Source of the DNA: Spirochaetales bacterium Spiro_09
GTDB lineage: Bacteria > Spirochaetota > Spirochaetia > Treponematales > Treponemataceae
NCBI GenBank assembly: GCA_001604385.1
Contig: LVBK01000033.1
Location: forward strand, 257-64,256
DNA length: 64,000 bases
Direction: 5' to 3'
In this document: one piece after another, positions 12,019 through 47,394 of the stretch
How the letters are laid out: every line of letters starts with the position of its first letter
How positions within the stretch are numbered: position 1 is the stretch's first letter
Translations under genes and position numbers: made by a program
The notes under the pieces: generated by a model
What the model saw: only the letters and a program-made list of their open reading frames with translations
The model's database searches: none
Told to the model about the DNA's origin: nothing

Positions 12019-12315
12019 TCATGCAGAAATATAAGATCGCAGAAGGGATTCCAGCTCTGCAACTGACGTTTCGCCCTCACGACAAAAACCCGCACGCCGC
12101 AAACGGTCAAGAACAGACTCTTCCAGAGTGCCGGTAAACGCAAGCGGTATTTTTTTCACCGTGCATTCACGGATAAAACTGATCAACAGCTGGACACCGG
12201 CAAGATCAAAAGAATGCATTTCGCTGATGTCCAGAGTTACCGGCGCAGCCTTGCCGATCAAAGATGAAAACTCTTTGTACAAATCAGCTGCATTGTCGAT
12301 TGTCAGATCTTTCAT
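12019..12315 (-). CDS. STAS-domain protein in chemotaxis operon
   Basis: This 98-residue single STAS domain has the pattern VTLDISEMHSFDLAGVQLLISF. In SpoIIAA-type anti-anti-sigma factors the loop reads D-S/T-S-G with a phosphorylated Ser. Here the position before Gly is Ala (about residue 39, DLAG), as in MlaB-like STAS proteins, so regulation by Ser phosphorylation is unlikely. The gene overlaps cheW by 4 nt and precedes cheA, so it is translated with the signalling core. STAS proteins occur in other che operons; their role there is not settled. Confidence 0.8.
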   Translation of the reverse strand: MKDLTIDNAADLYKEFSSLIGKAAPVTLDISEMHSFDLAGVQLLISFIRECTVKKIPLAFTGTLEESVLDRLRRAGFCREGETSVAELESLLRSYISA

Positions 12316-42370: not shown

Positions 42371-43819
42371 TCAAACGCCGGCTGTCTCCACGTATTTTTT
42401 CAGTTGTACACCCGCTACCTTCAGATTTGTAATTACTGACGGCCCTGCAATACAGCCTCCCGGACACGCCATGACTTCCACCAGATTACCTTCTGCGGGT
42501 TTTTTATCCGCTGCAGCCTTACCAAAGGCTTTCAACTGCTTCATACCTGCAGCATCCAGTCCGTTGATGACATAGGGGCGCAGCCGCTCCGTATCCTTAA
42601 CCCTGATGCGGACAGCTTCGGCGACACCGCCGGATTGGGCAAAATTCCGTGCAGACCCGGTTGGCTGCGTTTCGCACACAAGACTTTCGCTCGTTCCGAC
42701 ATCGATACCCTTGGCAACAAAAAGGGCTCCCAATTCCTCAGCCGACAATACATAATCGACATAGGGATCGTCGAGGCCTTCCTTTCTTTTGGCAAGACAG
42801 GGACCGATAAATACCGTTACATACGACGCATCCTCTTTCCGCGCAATTTCCGCGGTATAATGCATGGGCGATCGGGTTTCAGACACGCAGGGAATCAACT
42901 CCGGTGCATGCAAATGAACTGCACGAACATATGCCGGACAGCAGGACGTTGTCATAACTACGTCGCCCCGATCCATCCGCTCTTCAAATTCATGGGCTTC
43001 CTTGTCGGCGGTAATATCGGCACCCACGGCAACTTCAAAGGTTTTATAAAATCCCGCAGATTTCAGGGCACCTTCAAGCTGTCCGGGTGCGGCCCGAAAC
43101 TGGGCAGCTATTGCCGGCGCATACATCGCTACGACCTTTTTTCCTTCCATCAGATTCTTTATTACGTCAACCAGCTGCCCCTTGTCCATCATCGCCCCGA
43201 ACGGGCATTCACGCATACAGGCACCGCAAAAGGTGCATTTGCTGTAATCGATGCGCTCCTTTCCGTTTTCATCCTTGGAAATGGCACCCACCGGGCAGGC
43301 TTCCTCGCAGGGTACGGGAATTTTGATAATGGCATGATAGGGACAATTCTGTTTGCATATGCCACAATTTATGCAGGCTTCGGCGTCAATAACAGCCCGG
43401 CCATTTTTAATTTCAATACACTTTTTCGGGCAATTCATGACACAGGGACGGGCAACACAAGCCTGGCAGGCGTTGGTCACCATATAATGTGAACGGACAC
43501 ACGCATTGCAGGCTTCATCCAGAACAGTCAGCATGGGCTCTGTCGGGCGGTCACGATTCAGGGCGTCACGGGCATACTCGGCCAGTTTCTTTTCGTCATC
43601 GTAGTCTTCGACACTGTGCCCCAACCGCGCTATAACACGCATGCGCAGGACTTCACGGTCATGATACACGCAGCAACGAAACGGGTCGGCATTTAATGGA
43701 GCCATCTCGCGGGGTATATAATGAACTCCCTCTTCAAGCTTGCCTTCCAGCTGCAATTTTGCGATACGAACCAATATTTCACGCTTTAGTTGAGCCGCGC
43801 CATTATTGATATTAAGCAT
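42371..43819 (-). CDS. [FeFe] hydrogenase, group B-like catalytic subunit
   Basis: The 482-residue protein has N-terminal Fe-S domains (CNACVRSH, CQACVARPCVMNCP, CINCGICKQNCP, CTFCGACMRECP), then the H-cluster domain. All H-cluster motifs keep their Cys ligands: L1 TTSCCPAYV, L2 IGPCLAKRKEG, L3 VMACPGGCIAGP. The L1 Cys pair includes the proton-transfer Cys, so the enzyme should be catalytically competent. TSCCPAY is typical, to my knowledge, of the group B monomeric enzymes. It should interconvert H2 and protons with ferredoxin. It overlaps the 2Fe-2S protein gene by 8 nt. Maturation genes hydEFG are not in the window. Confidence 0.88.
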   Translation of the reverse strand: MLNINNGAAQLKREILVRIAKLQLEGKLEEGVHYIPREMAPLNADPFRCCVYHDREVLRMRVIARLGHSVEDYDDEKKLAEYARDALNRDRPTEPMLTVLDEACNACVRSHYMVTNACQACVARPCVMNCPKKCIEIKNGRAVIDAEACINCGICKQNCPYHAIIKIPVPCEEACPVGAISKDENGKERIDYSKCTFCGACMRECPFGAMMDKGQLVDVIKNLMEGKKVVAMYAPAIAAQFRAAPGQLEGALKSAGFYKTFEVAVGADITADKEAHEFEERMDRGDVVMTTSCCPAYVRAVHLHAPELIPCVSETRSPMHYTAEIARKEDASYVTVFIGPCLAKRKEGLDDPYVDYVLSAEELGALFVAKGIDVGTSESLVCETQPTGSARNFAQSGGVAEAVRIRVKDTERLRPYVINGLDAAGMKQLKAFGKAAADKKPAEGNLVEVMACPGGCIAGPSVITNLKVAGVQLKKYVETAGV

Positions 43820-44069
43820 CTATCATCTCCCTGATCCGGGCAATCACGGCCGGCAGGGTCGCACCCGCCATAACTTGATCACCGACTATCACAAAAGGAG
43901 CTCTGCCATTTTTTGCATCCTTGCAAAAGCCAAGACAGGTTGCGCCTTCCACTTCCACCAAATCCCGAATATCATCCGGCAATTCATCCTCCAGAAGAAG
44001 GATATCTGATGCGCCCATGACATAACAGGCTGTGCCTGAACAAATAACTATCCGTAATTTTTCCGCCAT
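43812..44069 (-). CDS. Thioredoxin-like [2Fe-2S] protein
   Basis: The 85-residue protein resembles the NuoE/HydC-type thioredoxin-like [2Fe-2S] fold. It has CSGTACYVMGA (CxxxxC) near the N terminus and ATCLGFCKDA (CxxxC) later, giving four ligands. It is the electron-transfer partner expected next to an [FeFe] hydrogenase, whose gene it overlaps. The other 2Fe-2S gene at the head of the operon is a distant relative, so each hydrogenase-like subunit has its own small partner. Confidence 0.85.
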   Translation of the reverse strand: MAEKLRIVICSGTACYVMGASDILLLEDELPDDIRDLVEVEGATCLGFCKDAKNGRAPFVIVGDQVMAGATLPAVIARIREMIDA

Positions 44070-44087
44070 GTTTCTCTCCCTGTCTGC

Positions 44088-45317
44088 TCACAAATACGAG
44101 ATATTGACCTCTTTGAGGTACTGTTCCGCAAGCAGCTTTTGTATTTTTTTAACGACATTTCGTCTGATCTCCAGCTCCACTGGCATGTTCGGGTCCTGAT
44201 GCGCCTCGTTAATTTTCGTGCCGACAACTATCTGTATACGATCACTATCCAGCAACAACTCGCACAGTTTACGTGCGCCATGTTCCCTCTCCTGCTCGAT
44301 ACCGGCCGAACCACCCGAACGCGCACCCCGCTCAAGTATTTCCGAAACACGGCCCAGCGTAATAATTCCTTCTGTAACCAAATCCGCGCCTTCCATTACA
44401 GACATTGGGGGTATCTCCGGATCAATATTTTTCAAATCAAGCTTGAGCTTGCGTCCCAATTCCCGGGACAGAATATTTGCAGTCGTTCCCCCGCACAGCA
44501 CCTTTTTACCCGGAAACATGGAAAACAGGCGGGCCATTTCAGAATCCCGGTCCTGATTGACCGGTGGCCCGGTCATTATCAACAAGTCCCGCGGATTCCT
44601 GAAATAAATAACCCCGCAGGTTATGTCATCCTTGGCGCGGAAGCTGTCCTGCTGACGGGCCTGTGTTACGACGGTCCGCGCAAGATCCCGCGCGCTGATC
44701 GAAGGATTCCTGCTTATATTATCCAGAATAAAATCCTGTACAAGACACGGACCCCATCCCAGGGGAAAAGCCCGCGACCCCATACCTGACTGGGTTACCC
44801 CGTCAGAGAAAAAAACCAGACGATCACCAGGCCGGGCTTTATAATCTGAATAATAGAGCGTGGCCTCCTTTGCGGGAGCAGTCTTCTTGTTCTTGCGTTC
44901 TATCGGGGTGCACTGCTTGATCGGTTCGACAACGGTATTTTCGCGAATCAGGACGTACCCCGGGTTATCGTACTCCATAATGCGCACAGACGAATTCGGC
45001 TCAATATCGACAAGGGTGAAGGTGGCATAGCTGATACCCCGCTCCTTGCATACCGGAAGAGTGCTCATGATAATATCGGCCGCCCGCTTGATCGGTATGT
45101 CCGACGCTATGAACTTCAGCGCCATGGTGGCGGTCAGCGTTGACAGAACACCGGCTTTGATACCGGACCCAAGACCATCCGACAACACGGTAATAACACG
45201 GCCATCAGTCTCATTTTTCCGGGATAGAAAGGTGTCTCCCGGGGCTCCCTGGTTATATTTCGAACACTGATAGTGTCCGACTTCAATAAAGGCACCGGCA
45301 GCTATAAGATCGCTCAT
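44088..45317 (-). CDS. SpoIIE-like PP2C serine phosphatase
   Basis: The 409-residue protein has a PPM/PP2C phosphatase core in its N-terminal part (ITVLSDGLGSGIKAGVLSTLTATMALKF, DRLVFFSDGVTQSGMGSR, and a later DDITCGVIYF). The Asp residues of SDG, FSDG and DDIT are the usual metal ligands. The C-terminal half (about residues 250-409) has no recognised domain (MTGPPVNQDRDSEMARLFSMFPGKKVLCGGTTANILSRE). In HydS-type clusters this phosphatase is thought to relay the sensor signal. The gene overlaps hydS by 4 nt. No partner STAS protein with a phosphorylatable Ser is in the window. Confidence 0.87.
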   Translation of the reverse strand: MSDLIAAGAFIEVGHYQCSKYNQGAPGDTFLSRKNETDGRVITVLSDGLGSGIKAGVLSTLTATMALKFIASDIPIKRAADIIMSTLPVCKERGISYATFTLVDIEPNSSVRIMEYDNPGYVLIRENTVVEPIKQCTPIERKNKKTAPAKEATLYYSDYKARPGDRLVFFSDGVTQSGMGSRAFPLGWGPCLVQDFILDNISRNPSISARDLARTVVTQARQQDSFRAKDDITCGVIYFRNPRDLLIMTGPPVNQDRDSEMARLFSMFPGKKVLCGGTTANILSRELGRKLKLDLKNIDPEIPPMSVMEGADLVTEGIITLGRVSEILERGARSGGSAGIEQEREHGARKLCELLLDSDRIQIVVGTKINEAHQDPNMPVELEIRRNVVKKIQKLLAEQYLKEVNISYL

Positions 45318-47092
45318 ACATCGTCCTCATCGATCGCAGAGAAAGATTCAATAATCGAGTTGAGCGTTGCTTCGGTTTCAGCCGCATTTTCCCCAAGCAA
45401 GAAGGCAATTTTTTGAACGACCGCCAGGTTTTTGTCAATAACCTTGCGGGTTTGCCTGATAACCCGGTCGCGTTGAACTTGAGGCGCCGTAACATCCTGA
45501 ATGACCCCGCACGAACTTTCCCCTTTTTCGATGGAAAATACGGTCGCATGGAATATCTTTTTCCCTTCCCGGAATTCATGTTCCACTACATCCGGACCGT
45601 CAACTGTCATAACATCGCGGAAAAATCGCGCCATGCCGGTTATGGCTTCCAGGTCTGCCCCTTCCATCCCCGGCCTGGCCTCATACATCGACTCAATATC
45701 GCTTCCCATCAAGTGGGCAAAATTCTCGTTGCACTCCACTATTTTCATGGAAGAATCGCAAATTACCACACCGGACGGGATCGCTTTAATCAGCCCGTTA
45801 GCCTTCTTTTGTGCAAGTTTTCGCATGTAGGACACGCACATGGTCTTTTCTGCCCGGTTTTCCAGCATAGCGGCAACAAAAAGACGGCAGGTATCATAGC
45901 CGCAGCTGCCGCAATTGAGCTCATCCGCAATCGTCAGTTTTCCAACCTGCTTCAATGCGGAACGAAGCTCATCCTCGCTGTGACTGAGCGGAACAGGCCG
46001 TTCAATCGGCAGAGTCCCGGCAAGCTCCGGAACCGGATCACAGAGGGCGGCTGATTCCTCTGGGGCATTTTGGGCATATTCAAGCAACCTGATTCGCCGC
46101 AGGGATGAAGGTCTTTTCAAGGAAACAAGCGGACCGTTTACACAGCCGCCCGGACAGGCGAGCAATTCCATAAAAAGAGGAACCTCAAGGTCTTCATTTT
46201 TCAGGCCGCGAATAGCCGCATCAATCGCGCCGAGTCCGGTTACCGACATCATATGAACTCCGACGGAAGGTGAAAACTTTTTAACCGAAGCGATCATTCC
46301 ACCGTCAACGCCGTACAAGCTTCCCGAGGAAGCCCGAAAGGGTATGAACCCGCTGCCAGAACCCATGTTCTTGTCATGTCTTTCGCGGAGATTTCCGGGA
46401 TCAATTCCCGCATCGTTCATCCATCCGGCCAGTTCGGCAAAACTGATCGCCGCATCAACGGTCTGCCACACATCAGCTTCACGTTTTTTGGCAATACAGG
46501 GGCCGACAAACACAACGCCGATATCTTCTCCATAAATTTGCCGCAGGTAGCGGGAATGGGCCAGAAGGGGGGAAGCCCTGTCGGTAATAAACCGCTCGTA
46601 CTCGGGTAAATAACGTTTCACGTACTCCACCGCGGACGGGCAGGCAGACGACAAATACAGACGTTTTGTATCAGATTCCGTACCGGAAGCTATCTTTCCC
46701 CGCGCAAGGGCAAAATCCTCAGCCAGACGGGCAGACACCAGGTCCGCCCCGATCGCAGTCTCCGAAACGCCAAAGAAGCCCAGGCTTTTAATCGCTTCAA
46801 CAAGTGTCTCGGGTGGAATTCCGGTAAATTCCGAGGCAAAAGAAGGAGCAAGGGACACAATAACCTTGTCCTTCAGTTTCAACAGCTGGCGGGCACGACC
46901 CAGATCGTCCCGGACTCGCTTTGCTCCGGCCGGACACACCGTCACACAATGGCCGCACAGGACGCACAGGGAAGAAATAACCGCCGCATGCCCGTTTTCA
47001 ACACGTATTGCCTTTACCGGGCATTCACGGATACATTTGTAACAATCCTGGCATTGCGTCTTTTCTGTATAAATGGGATTAAGATAATTCAT
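45314..47092 (-). CDS. hydS: Sensory [FeFe] hydrogenase HydS with PAS domain
   Basis: The track starts at 47215; the ATG at 47092 (MNYLNPIYTEKTQCQDC) gives about 592 residues. Order: two [4Fe-4S] motifs (CQDCYKCIRECP, CVLCGHCVTVCP), an H-cluster domain with L1 SSACPSAVE, L2 VGPCIAKKREAD and L3 LLACPGGCVNGP, a further [4Fe-4S] domain (NCGSCGYDTCRLF...MC), and a C-terminal PAS domain (SGVVICDSSMKIVECNENFAHLMG). In L1 the proton-transfer Cys is Ala while the ligand Cys is kept, as in group C sensory hydrogenases. It probably senses H2 or redox state rather than turning over. Confidence 0.9.
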   Translation of the reverse strand: MNYLNPIYTEKTQCQDCYKCIRECPVKAIRVENGHAAVISSLCVLCGHCVTVCPAGAKRVRDDLGRARQLLKLKDKVIVSLAPSFASEFTGIPPETLVEAIKSLGFFGVSETAIGADLVSARLAEDFALARGKIASGTESDTKRLYLSSACPSAVEYVKRYLPEYERFITDRASPLLAHSRYLRQIYGEDIGVVFVGPCIAKKREADVWQTVDAAISFAELAGWMNDAGIDPGNLRERHDKNMGSGSGFIPFRASSGSLYGVDGGMIASVKKFSPSVGVHMMSVTGLGAIDAAIRGLKNEDLEVPLFMELLACPGGCVNGPLVSLKRPSSLRRIRLLEYAQNAPEESAALCDPVPELAGTLPIERPVPLSHSEDELRSALKQVGKLTIADELNCGSCGYDTCRLFVAAMLENRAEKTMCVSYMRKLAQKKANGLIKAIPSGVVICDSSMKIVECNENFAHLMGSDIESMYEARPGMEGADLEAITGMARFFRDVMTVDGPDVVEHEFREGKKIFHATVFSIEKGESSCGVIQDVTAPQVQRDRVIRQTRKVIDKNLAVVQKIAFLLGENAAETEATLNSIIESFSAIDEDDV

Positions 47093-47094
47093 GG

Positions 47095-47349
47095 TTACCC
47101 CCGGCACAAGGTGTGTTCGAGCAAATCGGTAATCATACCGGGAAGAACGCCGCGGATCAGTTCGCCGTTGATCATGATATTCGGTCCGTCCTTGCATTTG
47201 CCCGTGCAAAGGCATCCCTGTATTTCTACTGTTGCGGACAATTTGTGCTCACGCAAAAAGCGTTCTATAATTTCCGCATTAAGGTTGTTTCCGCGGGAAA
47301 AGCAGGAACTGCCCATGCAAACAGTGATGATTGTTTCGGGATCTTTCAT
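47095..47349 (-). CDS. Thioredoxin-like [2Fe-2S] protein at head of hydrogenase operon
   Basis: The ATG at 47349 follows CAGGAG at 6 nt and gives 84 residues; the track start at 47394 lies in the promoter. Ligand Cys residues lie in TVCMGSSCFSRG (CxxxxC) and QGCLCTGKCKDGP, from which CxxxC supplies the second pair, the NuoE/HydC pattern. It is 2 nt upstream of hydS and probably passes electrons to or from it. Confidence 0.85.
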   Translation of the reverse strand: MKDPETIITVCMGSSCFSRGNNLNAEIIERFLREHKLSATVEIQGCLCTGKCKDGPNIMINGELIRGVLPGMITDLLEHTLCRG

Positions 47350-47365: not shown

Positions 47366-47394
47366 AATGTATAAAAATATATCGATTTGGTCAA
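47366..47394 (-). promoter_or_regulatory. Promoter of the hydS operon
   Basis: On the minus strand TTGACC and TACATT are spaced by 17 bp, about 20 nt before the first ATG. It lies in the 65-bp divergent gap facing the methyltransferase gene. Confidence 0.6.

Follow-up and report, generated by a model that had tools for sequence, protein, structure and literature searches.

A phosphatase-linked sensory [FeFe]-hydrogenase operon in a Spirochaetales genome and the conserved pairing of HydS with the phosphatase HfsC

A five-gene operon for a sensory hydrogenase, a phosphatase and a catalytic hydrogenase

The DNA analyzed here (the window) is a stretch of 64,000 nucleotides (nt) from contig LVBK01000033.1 of Spirochaetales bacterium Spiro_09, a gut-type spirochaete whose relatives suggest a placement near Treponema and whose genome is a draft (88% complete, 83 contigs). 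Reading of the sequence located five genes on the minus strand at 42371-47349, which encode a 2Fe-2S protein, the sensory [FeFe]-hydrogenase HydS, the phosphatase HfsC, a second 2Fe-2S protein and an [FeFe]-hydrogenase. A first-pass annotation made from the sequence alone had described a five-gene operon with these families, and it was borne out: all five open reading frames lie on the minus strand where it had placed them, and the Pfam and TIGR matches agree with the assigned families. The features of the operon, in the direction of transcription, are as follows.

47366-47394, minus strand: possible sigma-70-like promoter, TTGACC-17-TACATT, matching the consensus at 9/12 positions, directly 5' of the first gene
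47095-47349, minus strand: HfsA-like thioredoxin-fold [2Fe-2S] protein (TrxA), 84 amino acids (aa); Pfam PF01257 (2Fe-2S_thioredx), 2e-7
45314-47092, minus strand: HydS/HfsB sensory [FeFe]-hydrogenase, 592 aa, with two 4Fe-4S, H-cluster domain, PF04060 FeS, PAS and C-terminal helix, from Pfam and motifs
45317-45805, minus strand: HydS residues 430-592, PAS plus C-terminal helix (profile A3), the proposed phosphatase-coupling part
45350-45442, minus strand: HydS residues 551-581, conserved region of the predicted C-terminal helix, VIxxNLxxVQxIAxLLGENxAETE, with many of the invariant columns of alignment A3
44088-45317, minus strand: HfsC, SpoIIE/PPM Ser/Thr phosphatase, 409 aa; Pfam SpoIIE 2.8e-15, and Foldseek matches to SpoIIE and other PPM structures
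44091-44600, minus strand: C-terminal domain of HfsC, residues 240-409, without a Pfam family; AlphaFold2 predicted local distance difference test (pLDDT) 91.2, predicted template modeling (pTM) score 0.87
43812-44069, minus strand: second thioredoxin-fold [2Fe-2S] protein (TrxB), 85 aa; Pfam PF01257, 1.9e-5
42371-43819, minus strand: group B monomeric [FeFe]-hydrogenase (HydB), 482 aa; TIGR04105, 534.8 bits (cut-off 450)

The genes had been described as joined by overlaps or by gaps of 2-20 nt, and this is how they read. The TrxA stop (47095) and the HydS ATG (47092) are separated by 2 nt, the HydS stop (45314) and the HfsC ATG (45317) overlap by 4 nt (ATGA), the HfsC stop (44088) and the TrxB ATG (44069) are 18 nt apart, and the TrxB stop (43812) overlaps the HydB ATG (43819) by 8 nt. 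This spacing suggests that the five genes are co-transcribed. The operon is bordered downstream by a convergent DtxR-like gene and upstream by a divergent methyltransferase gene. The claim that one promoter drives all five genes stood in part: the sigma-70-like site just before the first gene is plausibly positioned for the operon promoter, but a scan of the region found such sites no more frequently than in shuffled sequence, and its score is not above the chance expectation for the region.

In HydS, Pfam recognizes Fer4, Fe_hyd_lg_C (4.4e-44), FeS (PF04060) and, just under the Pfam cut-off, PAS_8 (3.5e-4). The hydrogenase motifs read SSACP, GPCIAK and ELLACPGGC, with the proton-relay Cys changed to Ala as in ~43% of sensory enzymes (PMC10055695), and neither second-sphere Met (CpI M353, M497) is kept. 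These Pfam matches and non-canonical motifs, together with the 4-nt overlap, agree with the earlier description of a PAS and H-cluster hydrogenase of the sensory type that is coupled with a phosphatase gene. The group B hydrogenase at the end of the operon carries TSCCP, GPCLAK and EVMACPGGC with the proton-relay Cys retained, and the position equivalent to CpI M353 is Gly; with the TIGR04105 cut-off passed, it was correctly read as an enzyme with intact catalytic motifs.

The proposal that [FeFe]-hydrogenases sense H2 is more than a decade old, and gene associations related to this operon had been noted as known, which proved right in three cases. HydDB class C3 holds the phosphatase-linked (putative) sensory [FeFe]-hydrogenases (PMC5037454); as in the window, the gene for a sensory [FeFe]-hydrogenase accompanies one for a serine/threonine phosphatase, and nothing essential differs, but no phosphatase partner module, C-terminal domain or substrate appears in the description of the class. 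The hfsABCD operon of Thermoanaerobacterium, whose HfsC is described as homologous to serine phosphatases (PMC11837493), shares the PAS hydrogenase HfsB, the serine phosphatase HfsC and the ferredoxin-linked hydrogenase HfsD in one operon (PMC5707799, PMC11837493). Its order, HfsA-HfsB-HfsC-HfsD, and its tight spacing recur in the window with one extra 2Fe-2S gene; the comparison is by gene order and descriptions, and the four genes of Thermoanaerobacterium stand against five in the window, where two separate 2Fe-2S proteins are encoded. The HydS/HydA2 cluster of Ruminococcus albus shares the sensor with H-cluster and PAS domain, the Ser/Thr phosphatase and the ferredoxin-only hydrogenase, but includes AdhE, which the window does not contain, and its enzyme is called group A1 whereas that of the window is group B (PMC6776011). 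By domains, motifs and the linked phosphatase gene we assign the window operon to class C3, of the hfsABCD or hydS-hydA2 kind.

Pairing of the HydS tail with HfsC and exchange of the input

In a search of 296 genomes of the same phylum, full-length relatives of HfsC were found in 41. The PAS-helix profile A3 gave 42 strong matches located in exactly these 41 genomes; a score gap from E 1e-16 to 5e-9 separates them from weaker matches that look like generic PAS domains. All 42 copies adjoin HfsC, upstream and on the same strand, with 2-172 nt between the alignment ends. Many of the invariant columns of the A3 alignment fall in HydS residues 551-581, the putative C-terminal helix. In a wider collection, whose best 80 HfsC loci come from about 14 groups of phylum or similar rank, HydS is encoded directly upstream of HfsC in 79 (76 by a strict distance filter, the others having extended or frameshifted frames). 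The sole exception (L078), with no HydS upstream, is a small repeat-rich contig of a metagenome-assembled genome (MAG). No HydS-HfsC fusion was seen in the 80 loci. The gene order HydS-HfsC is thus conserved far beyond chance, and what stays invariant is the HydS tail together with HfsC. Since the pair spans many phylum-level groups (kinship uncorrected), inheritance alone is an unlikely reason for its conservation.

The part of HydS in front of the tail is exchanged in some genomes. In four genomes that lack HfsC, the hydrogenase and FeS domains of HydS are fused directly to a histidine kinase, which fits HydDB class C1. Conversely, in three genomes HfsC is found beside a protein of 173-186 aa that consists of PAS and helix only, without an H-cluster, and is 22-24% identical to HydS residues 432-584 (E 1e-8 to 1e-10). 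This short form adjoins HfsC in operons for CO dehydrogenase:

L189 2336-10141: CO-dehydrogenase-type HfsC cluster
L190 2228-10260: CO-dehydrogenase-type HfsC cluster
L191 32-8017: CO-dehydrogenase-type HfsC cluster

The neighbors in these clusters include genes that we take to be CooC-like and CooS-like, as well as ferredoxin, NuoE-like and NuoF-like genes. A literature search limited to open-licence papers found none that describes a CO-dehydrogenase form of HfsC. Because the genomes with kinase fusions lack HfsC and the PAS-helix without H-cluster adjoins it, the PAS-helix is the partner part of HfsC and the H-cluster one possible input; the core is probably a split PAS/phosphatase switch with an exchangeable input. 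A further putative sensory hydrogenase was observed elsewhere in the Spiro_09 genome (contig C35, L139 3971-6238): this protein of 755 aa combines two 4Fe-4S, [FeFe]-hydrogenase and FeS domains with an apparent methyl-accepting chemotaxis module, a putative H2 chemoreceptor similar to HydDB class C2.

The CO-dehydrogenase operons, with their NuoE-like and NuoF-like genes, also bear on a different reading, in which HydS-HfsC is a general sensor of redox state (ferredoxin or NADH) and the H-cluster domain an optional electron input. The linkage of HfsC to Rex (see below) and the 2Fe-2S proteins that accompany the pair would fit as well. However, the full H-cluster domain is retained in 39 of the 42 PAS-helix copies, and assembly of an H-cluster is described for TmHydS and Tam-HydA (PMC10055695, PMC6984386). 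We consider a general redox sensor unlikely and favor H2 as the input where the H-cluster is present.

The HfsC phosphatase, its C-terminal domain and its target

The SpoIIE match covers residues 38-237 of HfsC, and Asp28, Asp47, Asp172 and Asp231 are invariant among 21 aligned homologues. With the metal-binding aspartates kept and PPM folds returned by Foldseek, the earlier description as a PP2C/SpoIIE-like phosphatase can be retained. In the model the phosphatase domain begins near residue 10, without the N-terminal helical linker of RsbU and RsbP. In those proteins a regulatory domain drives the PPM phosphatase, in RsbP via PAS and a helical linker (PMC12143880). PAS, linker and PPM form one chain there, whereas in the window PAS-helix and PPM are encoded by two overlapping genes, and HfsC has an additional C-terminal domain.

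Beyond residue 237 HfsC has no Pfam match. The C-terminal domain, modeled alone from 38 diverse sequences, is a predicted alpha/beta domain whose conservation equals that of the catalytic domain, with the motifs TGPP, GGTTA, MEGxDLVTEG and GTxINEAHQDPxxP. A Pfam scan of the 38 members gave stray matches only (E >=0.02), with NBD_C matching weakly in 2/38 (E ~0.05); a sequence profile search of PDB found nothing below E 1, and Foldseek with the isolated domain against PDB found no confident relative (best E 0.015, template modeling score 0.43-0.46). The first-pass annotation could not assign this region of ~160 residues; it still has no Pfam family and no confident PDB relative, and it is predicted to be well folded. 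A profile of the domain finds the same 41 of the 296 genomes as HfsC does, always as part of a phosphatase fusion, in a frame of ~390-490 residues. The domain would most likely recognize the target or bind a small ligand.

Classical partner switching would be the textbook role for a member of the SpoIIE family: HfsC would act on a STAS anti-anti-sigma protein phosphorylated by a SpoIIAB/RsbW-like kinase, and H2 would control a sigma factor. The first-pass annotation had suggested a genome search for such a kinase and a STAS partner, and both families are present there (5 STAS and 12 HATPase_c_2 matches). Three of the five STAS proteins sit in other complete SpoIIE-STAS-kinase modules, and none of the STAS or kinase families recurs in linkage with HfsC across the 80 loci. 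In addition, the PF01740 STAS domain is absent from 7 of the 41 HfsC genomes (95-99% complete, one family; STAS_2, PF13466, was not searched), which argues against a PF01740 STAS substrate as a general rule; the four HfsC proteins from these genomes that are in the alignment keep all four invariant aspartates. On the kinase side, a full-length CBS-HATPase, encoded near HydABC in the Spiro_09 genome, is enriched in HfsC genomes (19/41 versus 37/255 others, p ~1e-5, kinship uncorrected), in favor of partner switching, but no full-length copy is found in 22/41, and it was rejected as an obligatory partner. The small HATPase of the HydABC operon has a strong match in only about half of the HfsC genomes. 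Taken as a whole, partner switching seems quite unlikely to us, and a target that is generally not a STAS protein remains our preferred reading.

Three loci of the Spiro_09 genome are recorded here for their kinase or STAS genes. On contig C2 (L136 4941-6933), ~9 kb from HydA, overlapping genes encode a CBS-HATPase_c_2 protein, a protein of 110 aa and a PHP-domain protein; we take the 110 aa protein to be DRTGG-like, and the kinase and a possible substrate look translationally coupled. Contig C49 (L137 4144-4695) encodes a STAS protein of 183 aa with a cysteine-rich, zinc-ribbon-like C-terminal tail and no recognized SpoIIE or kinase gene alongside. In the window itself a STAS match (30.7 bits) on the minus strand at ~12076-12309 stands beside CheA/CheW-like genes; it looks chemotaxis-linked and unconnected to HfsC.

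Neighboring enzymes and the proposed mechanism

Among the 80 HfsC loci, some of which end at contig edges, a group B hydrogenase is found near 40, HydABC near at least 10 and an HfsA-like 2Fe-2S protein near 65; three further loci have CO dehydrogenase. AdhE and Rex, both presumed from their sequence, also occur. In two MAGs of gut proteobacteria (L107, L120) and two genomes of the Spiro_09 phylum (L188, L199), AdhE is in line with the operon. Rex is also present in L120 and L188, and in 15/80 loci Rex and HfsC are no more than 10 kb apart. In L120 (226-8367), from an uncultured gut proteobacterium, TrxA, HydS, HfsC, TrxB, group B hydrogenase, AdhE and Rex follow each other on the same strand.

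The earlier view of the operon as self-contained, with sensor and enzyme in a closed feedback circuit, is not supported in that form: the catalytic partner varies, and the operon shows no obvious phosphorylated target. Such a loop would require a substrate of HfsC within the operon, either the 2Fe-2S proteins or the group B hydrogenase. The tight coupling of the genes in the window is in its favor, as is the raised hydrogenase activity of Thermoanaerobacterium saccharolyticum after hfsB deletion (PMC5707799). Nevertheless, across the collection the catalytic partner is variable or unseen nearby (at some loci because of contig edges) and only HydS and HfsC are constant, which makes the closed loop, in our estimate, very unlikely.

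The linkage of AdhE and Rex widens the arrangement known from R. albus and agrees with the effect on adhE in Thermoanaerobacterium, where deletion of hfsA or hfsB raises the ethanol yield and adhE expression (PMC5707799); this supports reductant disposal as the regulated process. In R. albus the cluster of ferredoxin hydrogenase, AdhE, PAS sensory hydrogenase and phosphatase is 111-fold down in co-culture, which was attributed to lower H2, and an H2 feedback loop through the sensor has already been proposed (PMC6776011).

We favor, with moderate confidence, a C3-type H2-sensing operon in which HydS sets the activity of HfsC in trans, acting on a target that is generally not a STAS protein. H2 would bind HydS at an H-cluster of low turnover, and the FeS cluster of HydS would relay the resulting redox change to PAS and to the conserved helix at the C-terminus. 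Because HfsC lacks the N-terminal linker of RsbU and RsbP, HydS most likely supplies PAS and helix in trans, as in a split RsbP; it would dock on HfsC and set its phosphatase activity. HfsC would then dephosphorylate its target, and the output would fit reductant disposal, by fermentative hydrogenase and AdhE, to the H2 level. For the window operon we infer H2 binding by HydS, the HydS-HfsC contact and its sign, the substrate and the regulon. Several points weigh against the proposal. Analysis of inter-protein covariation in 92 HydS-HfsC pairs (effective 66) found nothing above permuted pairing; deletions of hfsC and hfsD in T. saccharolyticum leave ethanol at the wild-type level and do not raise adhE expression, a result that does not isolate the role of the phosphatase (PMC5707799); and where the H-cluster is absent the input may be the general redox state instead of H2.

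The operon kind is already known; the present analysis adds the exclusive pairing of the HydS tail with HfsC, the C-terminal domain found only in HfsC, the carriers without PF01740 and the exchanged inputs. It is quite possible, and we put it forward tentatively, that HfsC founds a distinct and widespread signaling module, with a split PAS-helix/PPM, a private C-terminal domain, a non-STAS substrate and an exchangeable input. In many phyla this module would adjust how anaerobes dispose of reductant. The results narrow the step after HydS: HydS is probably coupled through a defined PAS-helix module of ~160 residues, a STAS substrate of the classical kind is unlikely as a general rule, and specificity is most obviously to be sought in the private C-terminal domain. 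AdhE, Rex, HydABC and CO dehydrogenase are each found next to this switch in one locus or another, so insight into this step would bear on how anaerobic fermenters of the gut and other habitats choose between H2, ethanol and acetate.

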